A stretch of 64,000 nucleotides of DNA from Chrysophaeum taylorii. Taxonomy: Eukaryota; Sar; Pelagophyceae; Pelagomonadales; Pelagomonadaceae. The stretch spans positions 248,001 through 312,000 of the forward strand of contig JAQMWT010000040.1 of assembly GCA_029834535.1 (NCBI GenBank), given 5' to 3'. The stretch's first letter is position 1. Every line of letters begins with the position of its first letter. This document shows positions 10,876-52,977 of this stretch, piece after piece. The notes beneath the pieces were generated by a model. The model was not told the origin of the DNA. It worked only from the letters and a program-made list of their open reading frames with translations, and did no database searches. The position numbers and the translations under genes are program-made.

Positions 10876-13326
10876 CTAGAATTTCTCGTCTTCGTCTATG
10901 TCGGGTTCTTCGAGCCTGTCGATGGCGGACTTGATAAGATTGTTGTCTTTCGGCTCGAGGTCGAGGGCAAAAGTAAAGTGCATCATCGCATCTTCCAGCT
11001 TCCCGAGTCTCTTGCAGATTTTCCCCATGAGAAAGTGGACCGAGGCCTCTCGCGGGGCGTGGTCGCAGACAGCCTTGAGCTCCTCGAGGGCCTGGTCGTA
11101 CCTGTCCATGGACATGAGGACGTTGGCGCACTGGAATCTCGCTTGCGGATTCTTTGGCTCCATGGCGGCCGCGCGTTCGAGATGGGCCAGAGCGTCGTCG
11201 CATTTTTTGTTCGCGTGGAGCGTCATGCCGAGGTAGCAGTTTCCCTGAATGAGGGGGACCGAGGTCCTGTCCTTGAAAACTCTTCGCGCAACAACAAAGC
11301 CGTGATCCATAGTAGCGCACCACGTTCTTCCGGAATAATTAAGAACTTGGCGGACGCGAGTCGCGCCGAGCTCGGGGGTGGCGTGATCGTCGTAGGAAAC
11401 GCACCACGTGGTGCCGTCGTCCAAGAGGGTTGAGTGCGCCGCGTAGCCTGCGTTAAAGAGCTGGAGACACAGCTCGTCGCGTCGACGCGGCGTCGACGCG
11501 AACAATTTTCGGTTTTTCGATCCTCCGACGCGGACGCGACGTCGGCCGTTTTTTGGAGCGCACGCCAGCATCGTGATGGACTCTTGTCCGAGAAGATCGA
11601 TCGCTTTTAGTTTTTTGAAGGAAGCGTCGTCTTTTCGCCGCGCGTACATCTCGTGTTCCGGCGTCACGAGAAGCGAGACGGAAGAACTGTCGTCGTCGAA
11701 CTCGATCATCCGCGTCTTCTTCTTCTTCGAGTTGACGACGACGGCCCGCGGACGCGCGTAGAGAATGTGCTGGGTTTTTGGATCGTAGGTCGCGAACAAC
11801 AAGTCGTCCTCTTTCTCGCGACGACGACGACGAGCAATAACCTCGTCCAAAAAGAGAAAGCCTCGATTCGTCAGGAGTTGGTGGTCCTCGGAAAAGCAGT
11901 GCAAGACCGAGGACTGGGGGTTGAGGGCGAGGGCGCGTTCGAAGTGGTATTCGGCGAGTTCGTACTTTTCCTGGCGATAGTATATGGCCCCCAATCCGTA
12001 CCAGGCGTTGTAGTGTCTGTCGTCGACGCGCATCGCGTGGCGGTACATGGCGACCGCTTTCTCGAAGTCCTCGTTCGCGACGTACTCGTGGCCGCAGAGG
12101 GTGTAGGCGTAGGCGAAGCGCGGGTCGACGGCGATCGCGCGCTGGAAGCACCGAATGGCGCTGTCGTGCTCCTTCTGGAGGCTCAGACAGTTGCCGGCGG
12201 CGCACCACGGTTCGGGGGCTCGCGGGTCGAAGTCCACGCAGCGTCGAGCCAGATAACAGAGGTCGACGTCGTCCTTGAGGTGCCAGAGGGCCGTCGAGAG
12301 GAGCTCGAGGCCCTGCATGCGGTGGGGTTCGGCCCTTTCCATCCGCCGAAAGGCGGCGACGGCCGCGTCGTAGTCCGCGCTCTCCAAGTGCGCGCGCCCG
12401 ACCGCGTTCAACACCCAGCCCGTCTCGAAATGCCTCGCCGGGACGGCGTGGAGCGCGCGGAGGGCGTCGTCGCAGCGATTTCGGGACATGGCTTCCCGCG
12501 CGACGGCGAGCCGTCGAAGCACGACCAGGAGGTTCTTCGCGAGGTCGTCGAGAAGTGCGACGCGACGTTGAATCTTCGACGGCGGCTTCTCGACCGAGCT
12601 CTCGTCCGAGCGAACGACGTTAGTATTCGTATTATTATTATTTATATTATTATACGACGGCGACGCTACCACCACCTTGGTCGGCGGGGACTCGTCGGCC
12701 ACCGAGTCGAAGCACATGGCACGCGCGACCGACTCGACCGGCGTGTCGAACAGTTTTTTTGGCGCCGCCGCCGCCGGTTCCTCGTCACCTTCAAACCAAG
12801 AGCCGTTGTTCGCGACGGCGCCGTCGTCGTCGACCGCGCCCCCCCCAAAAAAAGCGTCGACGTCCACCGCGGCCCCCAAAGAGCACAACGCCTCGAACGA
12901 CACCCACATGAGCGGGTCCTCGCGGAGACTCAGCTTGAAGTACTCGATCGCGTGCTCGCGCCGGTGCGTGCGCTGGCACGCGACCCCGAGCGCGTAGAGC
13001 CCGGCGGCGCCGTGCGGCACGTGCTCGACCACCTCGGGACCCGCGGTCCGGAGGTGCCGGTCGGGCAGGAGCGCGGCCTCGGCCTCGTGGGGCTTTTCCA
13101 GCTTTATGCACGCAACGGCCAAAAGGTACCTGCCGTGGGGGGTCGTCGCGCTGCCCTGAAGTATCGAATACGCGCGCTTTGGCGCGCCCTGTCGCAGGTA
13201 GCACGCGGCCACCGCCTCGAGGGACTCGGCGCTCCGGAGCTCCGCGTGGGCGCGCTCGCACACAAAGGTCGCGTTCGTCTGCAAAAACAAGGCGTCGTAT
13301 CGCTCGAACAGACTTCTTCCCGCCAT
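10876..13326 (-). CDS. CDC27: Anaphase-promoting complex subunit APC3/CDC27 interrupted by an in-frame intein
   Basis: APC3 is a TPR scaffold subunit of the APC/C ubiquitin ligase and binds the IR tails of CDC20/CDH1 and APC10. The 816-residue reading frame is 596 residues of APC3 plus a 220-residue insert (residues 477-696). Host features: the N-terminal TPR block (ERAHAELRSAESLEAVAACY), a loop with Asn runs (~225-237), and the C-terminal TPR superhelix with NAWYGLGAIYYRQEKYELAE and HFERALALNPQSSVLH. After the insert the host resumes with CYLGMTLHANKKCDDAL. In other eukaryotes these two parts are contiguous (NPQSSVL-x-C-x-xG), so the host sequence is uninterrupted apart from the insert. No stop or splice signal flanks the insert. 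The long plus-strand frame here is an antisense shadow. A repeat copy ends 27 bp upstream of the ATG. Confidence 0.95.
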   Translation of the reverse strand: MAGRSLFERYDALFLQTNATFVCERAHAELRSAESLEAVAACYLRQGAPKRAYSILQGSATTPHGRYLLAVACIKLEKPHEAEAALLPDRHLRTAGPEVVEHVPHGAAGLYALGVACQRTHRREHAIEYFKLSLREDPLMWVSFEALCSLGAAVDVDAFFGGGAVDDDGAVANNGSWFEGDEEPAAAAPKKLFDTPVESVARAMCFDSVADESPPTKVVVASPSYNNINNNNTNTNVVRSDESSVEKPPSKIQRRVALLDDLAKNLLVVLRRLAVAREAMSRNRCDDALRALHAVPARHFETGWVLNAVGRAHLESADYDAAVAAFRRMERAEPHRMQGLELLSTALWHLKDDVDLCYLARRCVDFDPRAPEPWCAAGNCLSLQKEHDSAIRCFQRAIAVDPRFAYAYTLCGHEYVANEDFEKAVAMYRHAMRVDDRHYNAWYGLGAIYYRQEKYELAEYHFERALALNPQSSVLHCFSEDHQLLTNRGFLFLDEVIARRRRREKEDDLLFATYDPKTQHILYARPRAVVVNSKKKKTRMIEFDDDSSSVSLLVTPEHEMYARRKDDASFKKLKAIDLLGQESITMLACAPKNGRRRVRVGGSKNRKLFASTPRRRDELCLQLFNAGYAAHSTLLDDGTTWCVSYDDHATPELGATRVRQVLNYSGRTWCATMDHGFVVARRVFKDRTSVPLIQGNCYLGMTLHANKKCDDALAHLERAAAMEPKNPQARFQCANVLMSMDRYDQALEELKAVCDHAPREASVHFLMGKICKRLGKLEDAMMHFTFALDLEPKDNNLIKSAIDRLEEPDIDEDEKF
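11239..11898 (-). mobile_element. Intein (Hint domain, mini-intein size) inside APC3/CDC27
   Basis: The insert is exactly 220 codons. Block A starts with Cys1: CFSEDHQLLTNRGFLFLDEV. Block B is LLVTPEHEMYARR, with the TxxH pair (T555, H558 of the precursor). Block F is TWCATMDHGFVVARR. Block G is VPLIQGN followed by host Cys697 as the +1 nucleophile. So Cys1, the block B Thr/His, the terminal Asn and the +1 Cys are all present; the penultimate residue is Gly rather than the usual His. The ~100 residues between B and F hold no clear LAGLIDADG motif. A stretch around 616-648 (RDELCLQLFNAGYAAHSTLL) could be a relic of an endonuclease subdomain. The inserted DNA begins TGC TTT and has no GT/AG borders. 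Active protein splicing is inferred, not shown. Confidence 0.9.
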
Positions 13327-13353: not shown

Positions 13354-14374
13354 ACAAGTGCAGGCCAGTAAGTTCACCTAGTCCCAATCTCTAACCCCAG
13401 TAAGTTCACCTGGTCCCAGTTTCGTATAAGTTCACCTGGTCAGTAAGTTCACCTAGCTCACAGCAACTCCTTTGAGCTCGTCGCTCTCGCCTCCGCCAAT
13501 CTAAGCTGCTTTGATCCGCACGCGCCGCCAACCTTTGAGTTTACTCTAAAAACCCCAGTAAGTTCACTTGGTCCCAGTAAGTTCACCTGGTCGCTATATT
13601 CACCTATCCCAATCTCAAACCCCAGTTAGTTCACCTGGTCCCAGTAAGTTCACCTACAGTGCGCGTGTAGACGCCGGGAGGGGGCTTATCGGTATTGCGG
13701 AGCACGTGTGAGGTAGGGTGGAGTCGTCGACTCAGAAGAGCATATTCTCGGGGTTGCCGATCGACAGAGAGCCACGTAGAGCTGGACGTGACAGAAGACG
13801 GGCTTGTGGGCAAGAGGACGCCGACCTCGCGGGGCGTCTGGCCCTGGCTCTTGGTGATCGTTTGGCGTCGGCGGGCCTTACGGGATACAGGTTGGAGGAG
13901 CCTCGGTGACAACGACACGATCGATCATGTATCTGGTACCGTTGCAGTGGCCGTGCGACGGGTCGAGGTTGCGAAGACTTTAAGCTCGCGATCAAAGTCA
14001 GCATGCCGTTGGTTGTCAGGGAGTTCAAAACTCGACTGTAAAGAGCGAGGCGTCGGCTTCCGACCCAACCTAGTCGGCCGAAAAGAACTCCGACGCCTCG
14101 TCTTCGGGAAAAAAAGGCCGCGGTCATGCGCGCGTTGTCAGCATCGACAACATCGTTTCGACGGGGCGTGAGAATGGCGCGCTGAAAGAGCCGCCGCGGG
14201 TCGTGGAAATAGTCTGCGAGGTCGCCGTAGACGGCTTGGAGGATCACTGTCTGGCTCTCGCTTCTACCTGATCCTTACTCTCGCGCCAACCTGATCCTTA
14301 CCCTAAATCGAGGGACAAACAGACAGACAAACAAACAGACAGACAGACAAACATCTGTCGATTAGTAGTTAGGA
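13354..14374 (-). mobile_element. 1.02-kb repeat unit (copy A) with Helitron/Pif1-type helicase tail
   Basis: Copy A is collinear, in reverse orientation, with the interrupted copy B at 49107-55944. Shared ends read TCCTAACTACTAATCGACAG on one side and GGCCTGCACTTGT on the other. Inside are a TGTC/TGTT tetranucleotide tract (14310-14355), a decayed helicase C-terminus, and a 3' zone with several short copies of AGTAAGTTCACCTGGTCCC (13370-13665). The unit fills almost all of the space between CDC27 (27 bp from its ATG) and the ascorbate peroxidase gene (75 bp from its ATG), so both genes may use promoter sequence from it. Whether the unit is itself a non-autonomous Helitron is inference. Confidence 0.8.
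13690..14250 (-). pseudogene. Decayed C-terminal part of a Helitron/Pif1-like helicase (copy A)
   Basis: Pieces of the helicase C-terminus appear in order but in shifting frames on the minus strand: VYGDLADYFHDPRRLFQRAI, TPRRNDVVDADNARMTAAF, then LRNLDPSHGHCNGTRYMIDR, then KSQGQTPREVGVLLP, then a VQLYVALRRS block equal to the motif VI region. These match the Helitron Rep/Hel helicase tail, which usually reads NKSQGQT and LYVALSR. Several frameshifts and stops mean it cannot be translated as one protein. Confidence 0.75.
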
Positions 14375-49626: not shown

Positions 49627-50544
49627 ATTGTCTGTTTGTTTGTCTGTCCCTCGATTTAGGGTAAGGATCAAGTAGGCGCGAGAGTAAGGATCAGGTAGGC
49701 GCGAGAGCCAGACAGTGATCCTCCAAGCCGTCTACGGCGACCTCGCAGACTATTTCCACGACCCGCGGCGGCTCTTTTAGCCAGCGCGCCATTCTCACGC
49801 CCCGTCGAAACGATGTTGTCGATGCTGACAACGCGCGCATGACCGCGGCCTTTTTTTCCCGGAGACGAGGCGTCGGAGTTCTTTTCGGCCGACTAGGTTG
49901 GGTCGGAAGACGACGCCTCGCTCTTTACAGTCGAGTTTTCAACTCCCTGACAACCAACGGCATGCTGACTTTGATCGCGAGCTTAATGTCTTCGCAACCT
50001 CGACCCGTCGCACGGCCACTGCAACGGTACCAGATACATGATCGATCGTGTCGTTGTCACCGAGGCTCCTCCAACCTGTATCCCTTAAGGCCGGCCTACG
50101 CCAAACGATCAACAAGAGCCAGGGCCAGACGCCCCGCGAGGTCGGCGTCCTCTTTCCCAAGCCCGTCTTCTGCCACGTCCAGCTCTACGTGGCTCTCCGT
50201 CGATCGGCATCCCCGAGGATATACTCATCTGGGTCGACGACTCCACCTTACCCCACACGTGCTGCGCAATACCGATAAGCCCCCTCCCGGCGTCTACACG
50301 CGCACTGTAGGTGAACTTACTGGGACCACGTGAACTTACAGGGGTTGGAGACTGGGACTAGGTGAACTGAGTGACCAGGTGAAACTGGGACCAGGTGAAC
50401 ATACTGGGGTTTTTAGAGTAAAGGGTTTTAGAGTAAACTCAAAGGTTGGCGGCGCGTGCGGATCAAAGCAGCTTAGATTGGCGGAGGCGAGAGCGACGAG
50501 CTCAAGGGAGTTGGTGTGAGCTAGGTGAACTTACTGACCAGGTA

Positions 50545-52977
50545 AATAAAGCCAGGAGACGCGCGGCGCGTCTCCCAAACCAACGGATTGTCTCCTGGGA
50601 GACGCGTCGCATTCGAGCCGTTGAGGCGTCCCAAGGCGACCGGTCCGAGACCCAGAGTCCCAGCGACAACGAGAAACTTGCAGTGCTGACGCGGCGCGGG
50701 CGGCCAGTGGTTGATGCCGTCGGCGACACTTCAACGCGCAGTCAACGAGAACCGCCCCCGCTCGAGCGATGGACGAAAGCGGCGAGCGGCCAGCGGCCGG
50801 CGGACGCCGCGACGGCGCCGACGGACGCCGCGACGGCGCCGACCGACGACGCTCTCCGCGCGTCGCGTCTCGCGCGCCGCGAAGTTGTCGAGGCGCATCG
50901 AAAGAATAAGGGCACGGCGGAGGCGTACGACCTCTGGGCGAGGCAGTGGTATGCTTGGTGTCACGCGAGGCCGGGCGACGTCGTCCGCGGCATGACGATG
51001 CCCGTCGACAAGCAGGTATACTCCGGCGCCGCGGTTCCGTCGACGGTCGAGCTCTGGCTCGCCGTGTTCGTAACGGTTCGGCCGAAGCTGAAGAACGGCA
51101 AGCCCGCGCCCGGCACGGGCGGCGCCGGGAGGGGGGTCGGGATCGAATCCGTGCGCCAGGCCATCAAGGTGGTCACCGACTTGCAAGCGGCTCAGAGGCT
51201 CGACGATGAGTTCCGCGCGGAACTGGAAGGCGTCCCCGCGCCTCGCGCTGGTGGCCGGGTACGCCTCGCGTTTTGGCCGATCAGCTGTCGTCTTGACAGC
51301 GTCTCGTCCTCGCAGCTCAAAGCCATTCTCGAGCAGCACGCGCACCAGACGGCAATGCGGCGCGAGGAGCTCTGCGGAGATAGGGCCTCGGGTCGTAACA
51401 TCAACGGCGACTACGACGACGAGCAAAAGGACCAGTTGAGCGCGATCGGGCTGTTCGAGGACTCCGCTCGCCCTCACAAGCTTGCCGAAAAGCAGGCGAT
51501 GCTCATGCGCGTGTCGCAGCTGCTTCGCGATTCGCTTTCGTTTCGAGGGGACGACGCGAGGAAACTCCAGCTGGCCGACGTATTTCTGGCGTGCGCGATG
51601 GCGAGAGAGGGACCGCAACCGTGCCGGATAGTTGTCTTTGCGCTCAACAACGGAAAATCCAACCTCGACGGCAAGGTTATGTTAAGCGCGTCGATGCGAC
51701 ACGCGACGAAGCCCGAGCTGTGCCTGCAGTTCCACTTGGCGCTGTCGTTCTTCGAATTGTACGTCGTATTTAAGGTGGACGTGCCCCGGTGGCGACACGA
51801 ACGCGACGAGGAGGGTCGCCTCCATCGAGATTTTTATTCCTTCCACGTGCTCCCGGGCTGCAACTGTCGCAACGGCATTTTTAACGTGCGCACAAGCCTC
51901 ACGCCGCAGACGATGTCCAACCACTCCAGCTGGATGTACGCGAACATTCGCAACCCGCTGGTGAATGCCCCGAAGAAAGTCCACCTCAATCGCGGGAGGT
52001 CGTTGCGAGACGGGATTGCCAGCGGCGTCTCGGAGCAGCAAGTTGGGCGCGCCGGGAATTATCGTGGATTCACGGCGCTGAACCGAAGCTACCTCACCGA
52101 CCTGCCGTGGGATATGATCCGGCATACCTCCGGGTTCCCGACCCGATCCGGATACTTCTTCTTGTTGCGTGCGTTGGTCCAACCTCCCGAGCCGTTGGTG
52201 AAGAAGGTTTTCGCGACATTGCTGGACTCATACTACGAGTGGCTCGAATCGCCCGACTTTAATAAGGACGACCTCGACCTCGCCACGAAGCAGTTTGTCG
52301 AGGTCGTCGAGCATCTCGCCGTCGTACTCTGCCAGGACCTCGTGGTCCTTTACGGGAATATGAAGCACTTCCACGTCTTCTCTCACGCACCTTTCAACGA
52401 CGACGCCTACGGCTTCTTAACATTCCGGCAGGAGCTCCTCCAGGCCATGACGGACCAAGGTGCCAACCAGCTGCAGCGCACTGCGGAGGCAGCGCAGGAA
52501 CGGGGAGATGAGAAGTGCGCCGCCTTCGCTCGCGAGGTGCTTGGTTCGGTCGCGACGATGCTGGAGCAGCACAAGGTCACAGGCTCGGCCAGCGGTCCAC
52601 CTGCGCAGCCAATCCAGATGCGATTAAGCGGAACGCCTGCTAGGCACATCAGCGAGATCCACGACCAAATATGTGGCAATGACGCGCCGCGGCGTCTCAC
52701 CGGCGCGATATCGGACCCCCCTGCGACCACTCCCGCTTTGTTTCCAGAGACACCGCCACGGGCTTCGGCCGCCGACTCAAACGACGCCTCAGACGACGCC
52801 CTTCTGTTTGGTCAACAAAGACTGGTTGTGTCGGATAAATCGACCTGGCCGGTTGACCCCCGCGCTTCCAAACTTCGCTCTTACGACGAATCTCGCCTCA
52901 TGCCCAGCGACCATAGGGGAGTTGGCCGAAGAGTACTTCCGCGGCGTCGGCATCGGTGCTCCTCTCAAGTACCTTGA
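50545..52977 (+). CDS. Crypton-type tyrosine recombinase
   Basis: The frame is open from 50446 through 52977; the element part starts at 50545. No ATG occurs in frame before GMTMPVDKQ (~50992), so the true start is unresolved. Numbering from 50446, the catalytic set is R367 in SFRGDDARKLQLADVF, H513 and R516 in KVHLNRGRSL, then GIASGVSEQQVGRAGNY, and Y549 in LNRSYLTDLP. This is the R...HxxR...Y order of tyrosine recombinases, with the spacing of the Crypton/Ndc10-like group. The conserved Trp usually seen in the GRW position is lost (GRAGNY). Downstream, the DNA-binding GCR1_C domain lies in another frame. Repeats of TAPTDAA near residue 122 are low complexity. Confidence 0.82.
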   Translation, partial: NKARRRAARLPNQRIVSWETRRIRAVEASQGDRSETQSPSDNEKLAVLTRRGRPVVDAVGDTSTRSQREPPPLERWTKAASGQRPADAATAPTDAATAPTDDALRASRLARREVVEAHRKNKGTAEAYDLWARQWYAWCHARPGDVVRGMTMPVDKQVYSGAAVPSTVELWLAVFVTVRPKLKNGKPAPGTGGAGRGVGIESVRQAIKVVTDLQAAQRLDDEFRAELEGVPAPRAGGRVRLAFWPISCRLDSVSSSQLKAILEQHAHQTAMRREELCGDRASGRNINGDYDDEQKDQLSAIGLFEDSARPHKLAEKQAMLMRVSQLLRDSLSFRGDDARKLQLADVFLACAMAREGPQPCRIVVFALNNGKSNLDGKVMLSASMRHATKPELCLQFHLALSFFELYVVFKVDVPRWRHERDEEGRLHRDFYSFHVLPGCNCRNGIFNVRTSLTPQTMSNHSSWMYANIRNPLVNAPKKVHLNRGRSLRDGIASGVSEQQVGRAGNYRGFTALNRSYLTDLPWDMIRHTSGFPTRSGYFFLLRALVQPPEPLVKKVFATLLDSYYEWLESPDFNKDDLDLATKQFVEVVEHLAVVLCQDLVVLYGNMKHFHVFSHAPFNDDAYGFLTFRQELLQAMTDQGANQLQRTAEAAQERGDEKCAAFAREVLGSVATMLEQHKVTGSASGPPAQPIQMRLSGTPARHISEIHDQICGNDAPRRLTGAISDPPATTPALFPETPPRASAADSNDASDDALLFGQQRLVVSDKSTWPVDPRASKLRSYDESRLMPSDHRGVGRRVLPRRRHRCSSQVP
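50555..50575. repeat. Inverted repeat next to the left end of the Crypton-like element
   Basis: GGAGACGCG and CGCGTCTCC are 9-nt arms around a 3-nt centre, about 10 bp inside the left border. A further GGAGACGCG follows at ~50598. Near the right end (~55793-55815) GTCTCT and AGAGAC form a smaller inverted repeat. This is the shape expected of a tyrosine recombinase binding site; that use is inference. Confidence 0.55.

Follow-up and report, generated by a model that had tools for sequence, protein, structure and literature searches.

Inteins of eukaryotic nuclei are generally regarded as uncommon and restricted to a few proteins. A 660 bp insert in the APC3/CDC27 gene of Chrysophaeum taylorii is described here that is very probably one of them: a mini-intein without a homing endonuclease, related to the inteins of phages, translated with its host and, judged from its sequence, self-excising. 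The common nuclear exteins given in the sections of a recent review used here (Green et al. 2018, PMC5784728) are Prp8, VMA1, RNA polymerase subunits, ThrRS, GLT, CHS and eIF5B, and the most inteins mentioned there for one nuclear genome is three. As described in those sections, nuclear inteins are in-frame insertions at conserved sites, with a nucleophile following, and types without an endonuclease are known, which is also how the APC3 insert presents itself. In the portion of the extein table used here there is no APC3, dynein, kinesin, PP5 or UBR, whereas this assembly has 11 related sites. Among the matches listed by a search of the full-text literature (mostly papers outside subscription), no title or abstract reported a native intein in any of these five.

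Among the systems closest to the insert are also the thymidylate synthase-type inteins represented by that of Corynebacterium phage P1201. Like the APC3 insert, they have Cys1, a block A of the form L-T-x-x-G, a TPxH motif, a block F of the YxGxVYC type with VRR, and a GN terminus. The P1201 intein differs in having Ser rather than Cys at the +1 position and in belonging to another host gene and domain of life, and the P1201-type inteins differ from the APC3 copy in that the latter is without endonuclease motifs.

The window, meaning the whole 64,000 nucleotide stretch that was analysed, is positions 248001-312000 of contig C40 (395,540 bases), in an assembly of 70.8 Mb and 697 contigs. The APC3 locus in the window has the following features.

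10876..13326, minus strand: APC3/CDC27 gene with the putative intein, 816 codons and a stop in one open reading frame (ORF), identified by Pfam and human CDC27 matches.
11899..13326, minus strand: N-extein, residues 1-476, with the C-terminal sequence NPQSSVLH, from the ORF and CDC27 alignment.
11239..11898, minus strand: predicted mini-intein of 220 amino acids, ORF residues 477-696, in which no LAGLIDADG motifs were seen.
11839..11898, minus strand: block A with Cys1, CFSEDHQLLTNRGFLFLDEV.
11644..11667, minus strand: block B, VTPEHEMY (TxxH), insert residues 78-85; the TxxH is also in 12 of the 12 other copies.
11338..11643, minus strand: linker, holding the family RRDELCLQLFNAGYAAH stretch from insert residue 139; this is the LAGLIDADG-like region of the sibling copies.
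11281..11325, minus strand: block F, TWCATMDHGFVVARR, with Cys at F4, insert residues 192-206.
11239..11259, minus strand: block G, VPLIQGN, with the terminal Asn and a penultimate Gly, insert residues 214-220.
11236..11238, minus strand: +1 Cys, the first C-extein residue, equal to human CDC27 Cys673 in the CDC27 alignment.
10879..11238, minus strand: C-extein, residues 697-816, CYLGMTLHANKK..., from the ORF and CDC27 alignment.

The ORF matches Pfam ANAPC3 with an expectation value (E) of 9.9e-31 and also contains tetratricopeptide repeats (TPRs). Human CDC27 (5g04_F) matches it at 3.8e-119 in three aligned stretches (phmmer), two of which join ORF residues 256-477 to CDC27 452-673 and ORF residues 697-812 to CDC27 673-789. 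The insert abuts Cys673 exactly, because the second stretch ends and the third begins at this residue. It is 220 codons long, in frame and with zero stops, and deleting it brings back the NPQSSVL-x-Cys junction seen in human CDC27. The initial annotation had placed a 660 bp in-frame insert at 11239..11898 whose removal rejoins APC3 at the conserved NPQSSVL-x-C; its coordinates, strand, length and absence of stops all agree with what was found, as does the human alignment. A Hedgehog/Hog or bacterial intein-like (BIL) domain without a conserved downstream extein was considered and rejected, as 120 APC3 residues follow the insert and match CDC27.

When 207 residues of the N-extein were searched against the assembly (E<=1e-10), a second APC3 copy was not found. 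The sole other match, on C546 with 34% identity, was rejected as CDC23/APC8, which it fits at 1.4e-79 versus about 1e-30 for CDC27. Since a second copy was not found and the insert lies within the TPR region, APC3 function probably needs splicing. The initial annotation raised this dependence as a possibility, and suggested that the element could serve as a control point. Immediately before the APC3 start codon, at 13368-13655, are degenerate repeats holding five copies of GTAAGTTCACCT.

Relationship to recognised inteins was assessed in 2707 ORFs, each of at least 50 amino acids, taken from the window and from loci L030-L047 and L058-L080 of the same genome, with the C14 and C314 matches described below included. 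A profile of the N part of ten phage inteins (P1201 and nine of the 164 phage records matching its intein) finds the APC3 ORF among these at 2.2e-6, and the top 15 rows all belong to a family of related inserts in the assembly; they cover 14 different frames, one having been fetched twice. Profiles of this family built without APC3 recover the APC3 ORF from the same set at 1e-26 for the N part and 1.4e-13 for the C part. When the family was aligned with the ten phage inteins (hhalign), the N part gave 97.3% and E 2.2e-11, with Cys1 on Cys1, and the C part gave 96.4% and E 1.2e-9. None of 100 column shuffles matched either score (the best were 18.8 for N and 26.1 for C, versus 66.5 and 63.2), and reversed profiles aligned over one column. 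The insert was also aligned with 12 of 21 IMG/VR intein loci, the other nine being near-duplicates, short, or of a non-whole codon number. It is 18-25% identical to these viral inteins, and the invariant columns include C1, L9, T10, G13, V78, H82, Y188, R205, R206, G219 and N220. The sibling in the PP5 gene reaches 24.6 bits against TIGR01445 (intein_Nterm) in the genome search, where the cut-off is 24.5, and 21.3 bits in a plain scan. For a large sibling, the top tblastn match among phages, at only E 0.3, is to a thymidylate synthase whose annotation reads 'contains hypothetical intein'; the APC3 insert itself has one phage match (tblastn, E 6) and the PP5 intein has none. The phage-profile match, the alignment of both ends of the family, the PP5 sibling over the TIGR01445 cut-off and the exact Cys673 site all favour the identification of the insert as an intein, which the initial annotation had proposed.

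The residues predicted to carry out splicing are present: Cys1, TxxH, the F4 Cys, the terminal Asn220 and the Cys+1 of the host. The F4 Cys is shared with most of the aligned viral relatives, and the usual Asp is absent from block F. The general roles of Cys1, the block B Thr and His, block F and the terminal Asn are set out in the sections of PMC7765530 used here. It is proposed that the APC3 mRNA is translated through the insert to give an 816-residue precursor. Cys1 would then undergo an N-S acyl shift, aided by the TxxH of block B, the Cys+1 of APC3 would accept the N-extein via transesterification, and cyclisation of Asn220 would free the 220-residue intein. The new peptide bond, SSVLH-CYLG, would restore the APC3 TPR. 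This would be standard class 1 splicing (Cys1, Asn220, Cys+1).

A protein search of the assembly with the insert (E<=10) gave 29 matches, consisting of the insert itself, 26 in related inserts and two others, on C14 (E 0.83) and C314 (E 3.75), which were judged on reading to be chance matches. With APC3 included, the family amounts to 13 copies, which occupy 11 sites and 8 kinds of gene. Copies were counted where both ends are present, and a remnant on C552, an extra N block on C330 and the inteins of the RtcB and RPC2 genes are excluded. The other copies are as follows.

C40, 65 kb from APC3: UBR-box protein copy.
C334: PP5 copy.
C24: ankyrin/cyclic nucleotide (cNMP) channel, two copies.
C138: dynein heavy chain, two copies; the best PDB match is axonemal DNAH6.
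C183: DYNC2H1-like gene, two copies; the best PDB match is cytoplasmic dynein 2.
C111: diverged DYNC2H1-like gene, two copies, identified from DNA similarity to the C183 gene.
C330: kinesin, one copy.
C110: kinesin-8-like protein, one copy; the best named PDB matches are kinesin-8 and KIF19.

Most copies directly precede a host Cys and one channel copy precedes a Ser. Cys1 is invariant in all 14 N pieces, and W-C, R-R and the terminal Asn are invariant in all 13 C pieces. For the second DYNC2H1 site, an intron separates the N flank from the copy, and in the C330 kinesin copy the N border can be placed in more than one way, since an intron precedes two N blocks. These are tandem intein N blocks in one kinesin gene (C330:332086-332790), for which a single C block was found; either part of the intein was duplicated or one intein lies inside another. 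The additional N block, at C330:332086, counts among the 14 N pieces and is omitted from the tree. In the C183 and C111 genes, a 24-residue exon end and then an intron separate the first intein from the second. Searches with the larger family members added only the C552 remnant (C552:124379-124549 and just after), a stop-ridden, pseudogene-like stretch with the C block of the C330 kinesin intein and kinesin sequence. A tree of the 13 family and 2 phage rows is star-like, with 3 of its 12 inner branches well supported.

A single open frame is present in six of the 13 copies. The stops and frame changes in the other seven are read here as short introns, two of which have been worked out; these are 58 and 48 nucleotides long, GT...AG, and their removal leaves whole codons. 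The two DYNC2H1-like genes are 77-81% identical in aligned DNA blocks and each has both inteins. In this pair omega is 0.345-0.346 in three of three intein stretches versus 0.15 in one extein stretch, a pattern indicative of purifying selection on the sibling inteins. These results bear on the question of whether the 660 nucleotides in APC3 could be an open spliceosomal intron that is removed from the mRNA. Introns do exist in this genome, and one in-frame GT-AG choice lies near the ends of the insert (GTCTTG...ATTCAG). It is the only such pair in the scanned ranges, which for the donor were up to 40 nucleotides from the 5' end and for the acceptor from 20 nucleotides inside to 39 outside the 3' end. 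However, its donor is unlike those of the two worked-out introns (GTGAGA and GTAAGA), and its use would give NPQSSGNCY, without the VL common to human CDC27. The insert is moreover a conserved protein domain, with selection on its sibling stretches, and two of the siblings carry short GT-AG introns of their own. An intron is therefore considered very improbable, and the 660 nucleotides are taken as coding for a candidate intein.

A number of results weigh against this identification. No Hint match was found in the APC3 ORF with Pfam, and the APC3 copy alone reaches 16.7 bits (E 0.011) against TIGR01445, below the cut-off of 24.5. This model matches one of 14 N pieces (E<=1) and one of five larger siblings. 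The phage C profile fails to pick the C part of APC3 from the ORF set (E 2.5). Searches of PDB sequences with both family profiles gave nothing up to E 10, and no confirmed family member was found in pattern-based scans of prokaryotic and viral contigs. A structural model of the insert has a mean predicted local distance difference test (pLDDT) score of 58.9, with viral inteins in its alignment, and a single-sequence AlphaFold model was useless (pLDDT 33.7). To these are added the stops and frame changes in seven of the 13 copies (one channel, one C138 dynein, all four DYNC2H1 and the C110 kinesin) and Gly219, which is penultimate in the APC3 insert in place of the usual His. The initial annotation would have been refuted by a lack of similarity to Hint/intein profiles; this did not come true, as the phage-intein N profile matches the insert, although Pfam is negative and TIGR01445 sub-threshold for the APC3 copy alone. 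A Foldseek search with the weak model placed inteins or BIL domains at the top 11 of 59 PDB matches (best E 0.017, low template modelling (TM) scores); this is supportive, not independent, because the alignment of the model contained viral inteins.

The initial annotation described blocks A, B, F and G correctly but left the missing His of block G unremarked. A penultimate His is a usual, not an obligatory, feature of inteins. Together with the block F without its usual Asp, the endonuclease motifs that were not seen, and a C part 37-45% identical to those of the siblings and unmarked by the phage C profile, the penultimate Gly might indicate a decayed intein or BIL-like domain, which either cleaves, leaving APC3 as two chains, or is inert, leaving APC3 with a built-in domain. 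Yet Cys1, TxxH, the F4 Cys, the terminal Asn and the +1 Cys are all retained, and the GN end is common to 11 of the 12 other family copies and to all 12 aligned viral relatives; the kinesin sibling on C110 has a penultimate His (HN^C). The open frame is maintained, and there is the failure to find a second APC3. Decay is for these reasons thought improbable, and an element competent for splicing is preferred.

LAGLIDADG motifs were not seen between blocks B and F of the APC3 insert. In the 12 siblings there are LAGLIDADG-like stretches, the first motif in 11 and the second in six, and the second-motif region of a large sibling resembles that of the P1201-type inteins. The Pfam LAGLIDADG_3 model matches one of five siblings weakly (E 0.085), and the acidic residues of the motif appear often to be missing from the stretches. 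As the APC3 copy is without these motifs yet keeps RRDELCLQLFNAGYAAH, it looks like a deletion derivative, and it is classed here as a putative mini-intein. The lineage may have spread to its 11 conserved-gene sites, presumably by LAGLIDADG homing and ectopic transfer, with the APC3 copy probably losing its endonuclease later. Intragenomic transfer has been proposed for the nuclear GLT and CHS inteins, in the sections of PMC5784728 used here.

The assembly is mixed in composition and the nearest recognised relatives of the insert are phage inteins, which could point to an assembly artefact or to foreign DNA, such as phage or bacterial, joined into the gene. The GC content at third codon positions (GC3) of the insert is 0.68, lower than the 0.85 and 0.78 of the exteins, but the sibling inteins that were compared are likewise somewhat lower in GC3 than their own exteins. 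The gene is eukaryotic and is on a 395-kb contig with a second family member, the UBR copy, and the insert keeps the reading frame at a residue that is conserved. Such a joining event is judged extremely improbable, and a native intein of the APC3 gene remains the favoured explanation.

Whether all of the copies come from one genome is a separate matter. Contigs C138, C183, C111 and C110, which together hold seven of the 13 copies, are 50-58% GC with zero triplet runs in the fetched stretches, whereas C40, C334, C24 and C330 have 57-64% GC and triplet runs making up 0.9-2.6% of bases. Twenty sampled contigs range from 43 to 68% GC with no clean split, and the two classes are not separated in the tree. 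The difference reflects either a mixed assembly or genome compartments. A second full eukaryote was sought, and a single copy at full identity came up for each of APC3, PP5 and RPC2; the RPC2 search was insensitive, because two candidates were scored and other polymerase paralogues were unlisted. Because the seven copies on the first four contigs, six of which are also among the seven with stops or frame changes, differ from the rest in the base composition of their contigs, it is not established that all copies share one host organism. On a cautious count there are at least six related copies on contigs like that of the window, two of them on its own contig.

Inteins outside the family are found in two other genes. 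The RPC2 intein is 567 amino acids (C398:324039-325739; WGML^CVEPGALV...VTHN^CPADTPEGE), with 28.9 bits against TIGR01445, above the cut-off, in a host that matches RPC2 at 7.8e-155. RNA polymerase second-subunit inteins are nuclear inteins in the part of Goodwin et al. 2006 (PMC1635734) used here, though the RPC2 intein of this assembly shows no detectable relation to the APC3 family (hhalign). The RtcB intein is 476 amino acids (C548:34947-36374; EDKEH^CFAPDTEVLL...YLVVHN^CEEYGRML) and has a penultimate His; it reaches 14.4 bits against TIGR01445, below the cut-off, and its host matches RtcB at 1.7e-110. Elsewhere in the window, at 50437-52974, is an 846-residue ORF with an NDC10_II-like domain (4e-17). 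Domains of this kind occur in Crypton-type tyrosine recombinases, and the ORF is possibly a mobile element.

The mechanism is one already known for inteins, and the surprise is in the scale and the hosts. The related copies in motor, signalling and protein-turnover genes suggest that inteins of this kind are able to spread within a nuclear genome. Most of the group escapes the Pfam and NCBIfam models applied here, and so more may hide in protist genomes. A bolder proposal, which is rather unlikely, is that one phage-type lineage radiated to at least 11 sites in motor, flagellar, cell-cycle, phosphatase, channel and N-degron genes of one nucleus, and that their shared splicing would act as a condition-sensitive gate on division and motility. 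The copies offer a natural system for asking how, within a eukaryotic nucleus, inteins get from one site to another that is not homologous, and whether they are merely tolerated there or whether an essential cell-cycle ligase may wait on protein splicing.

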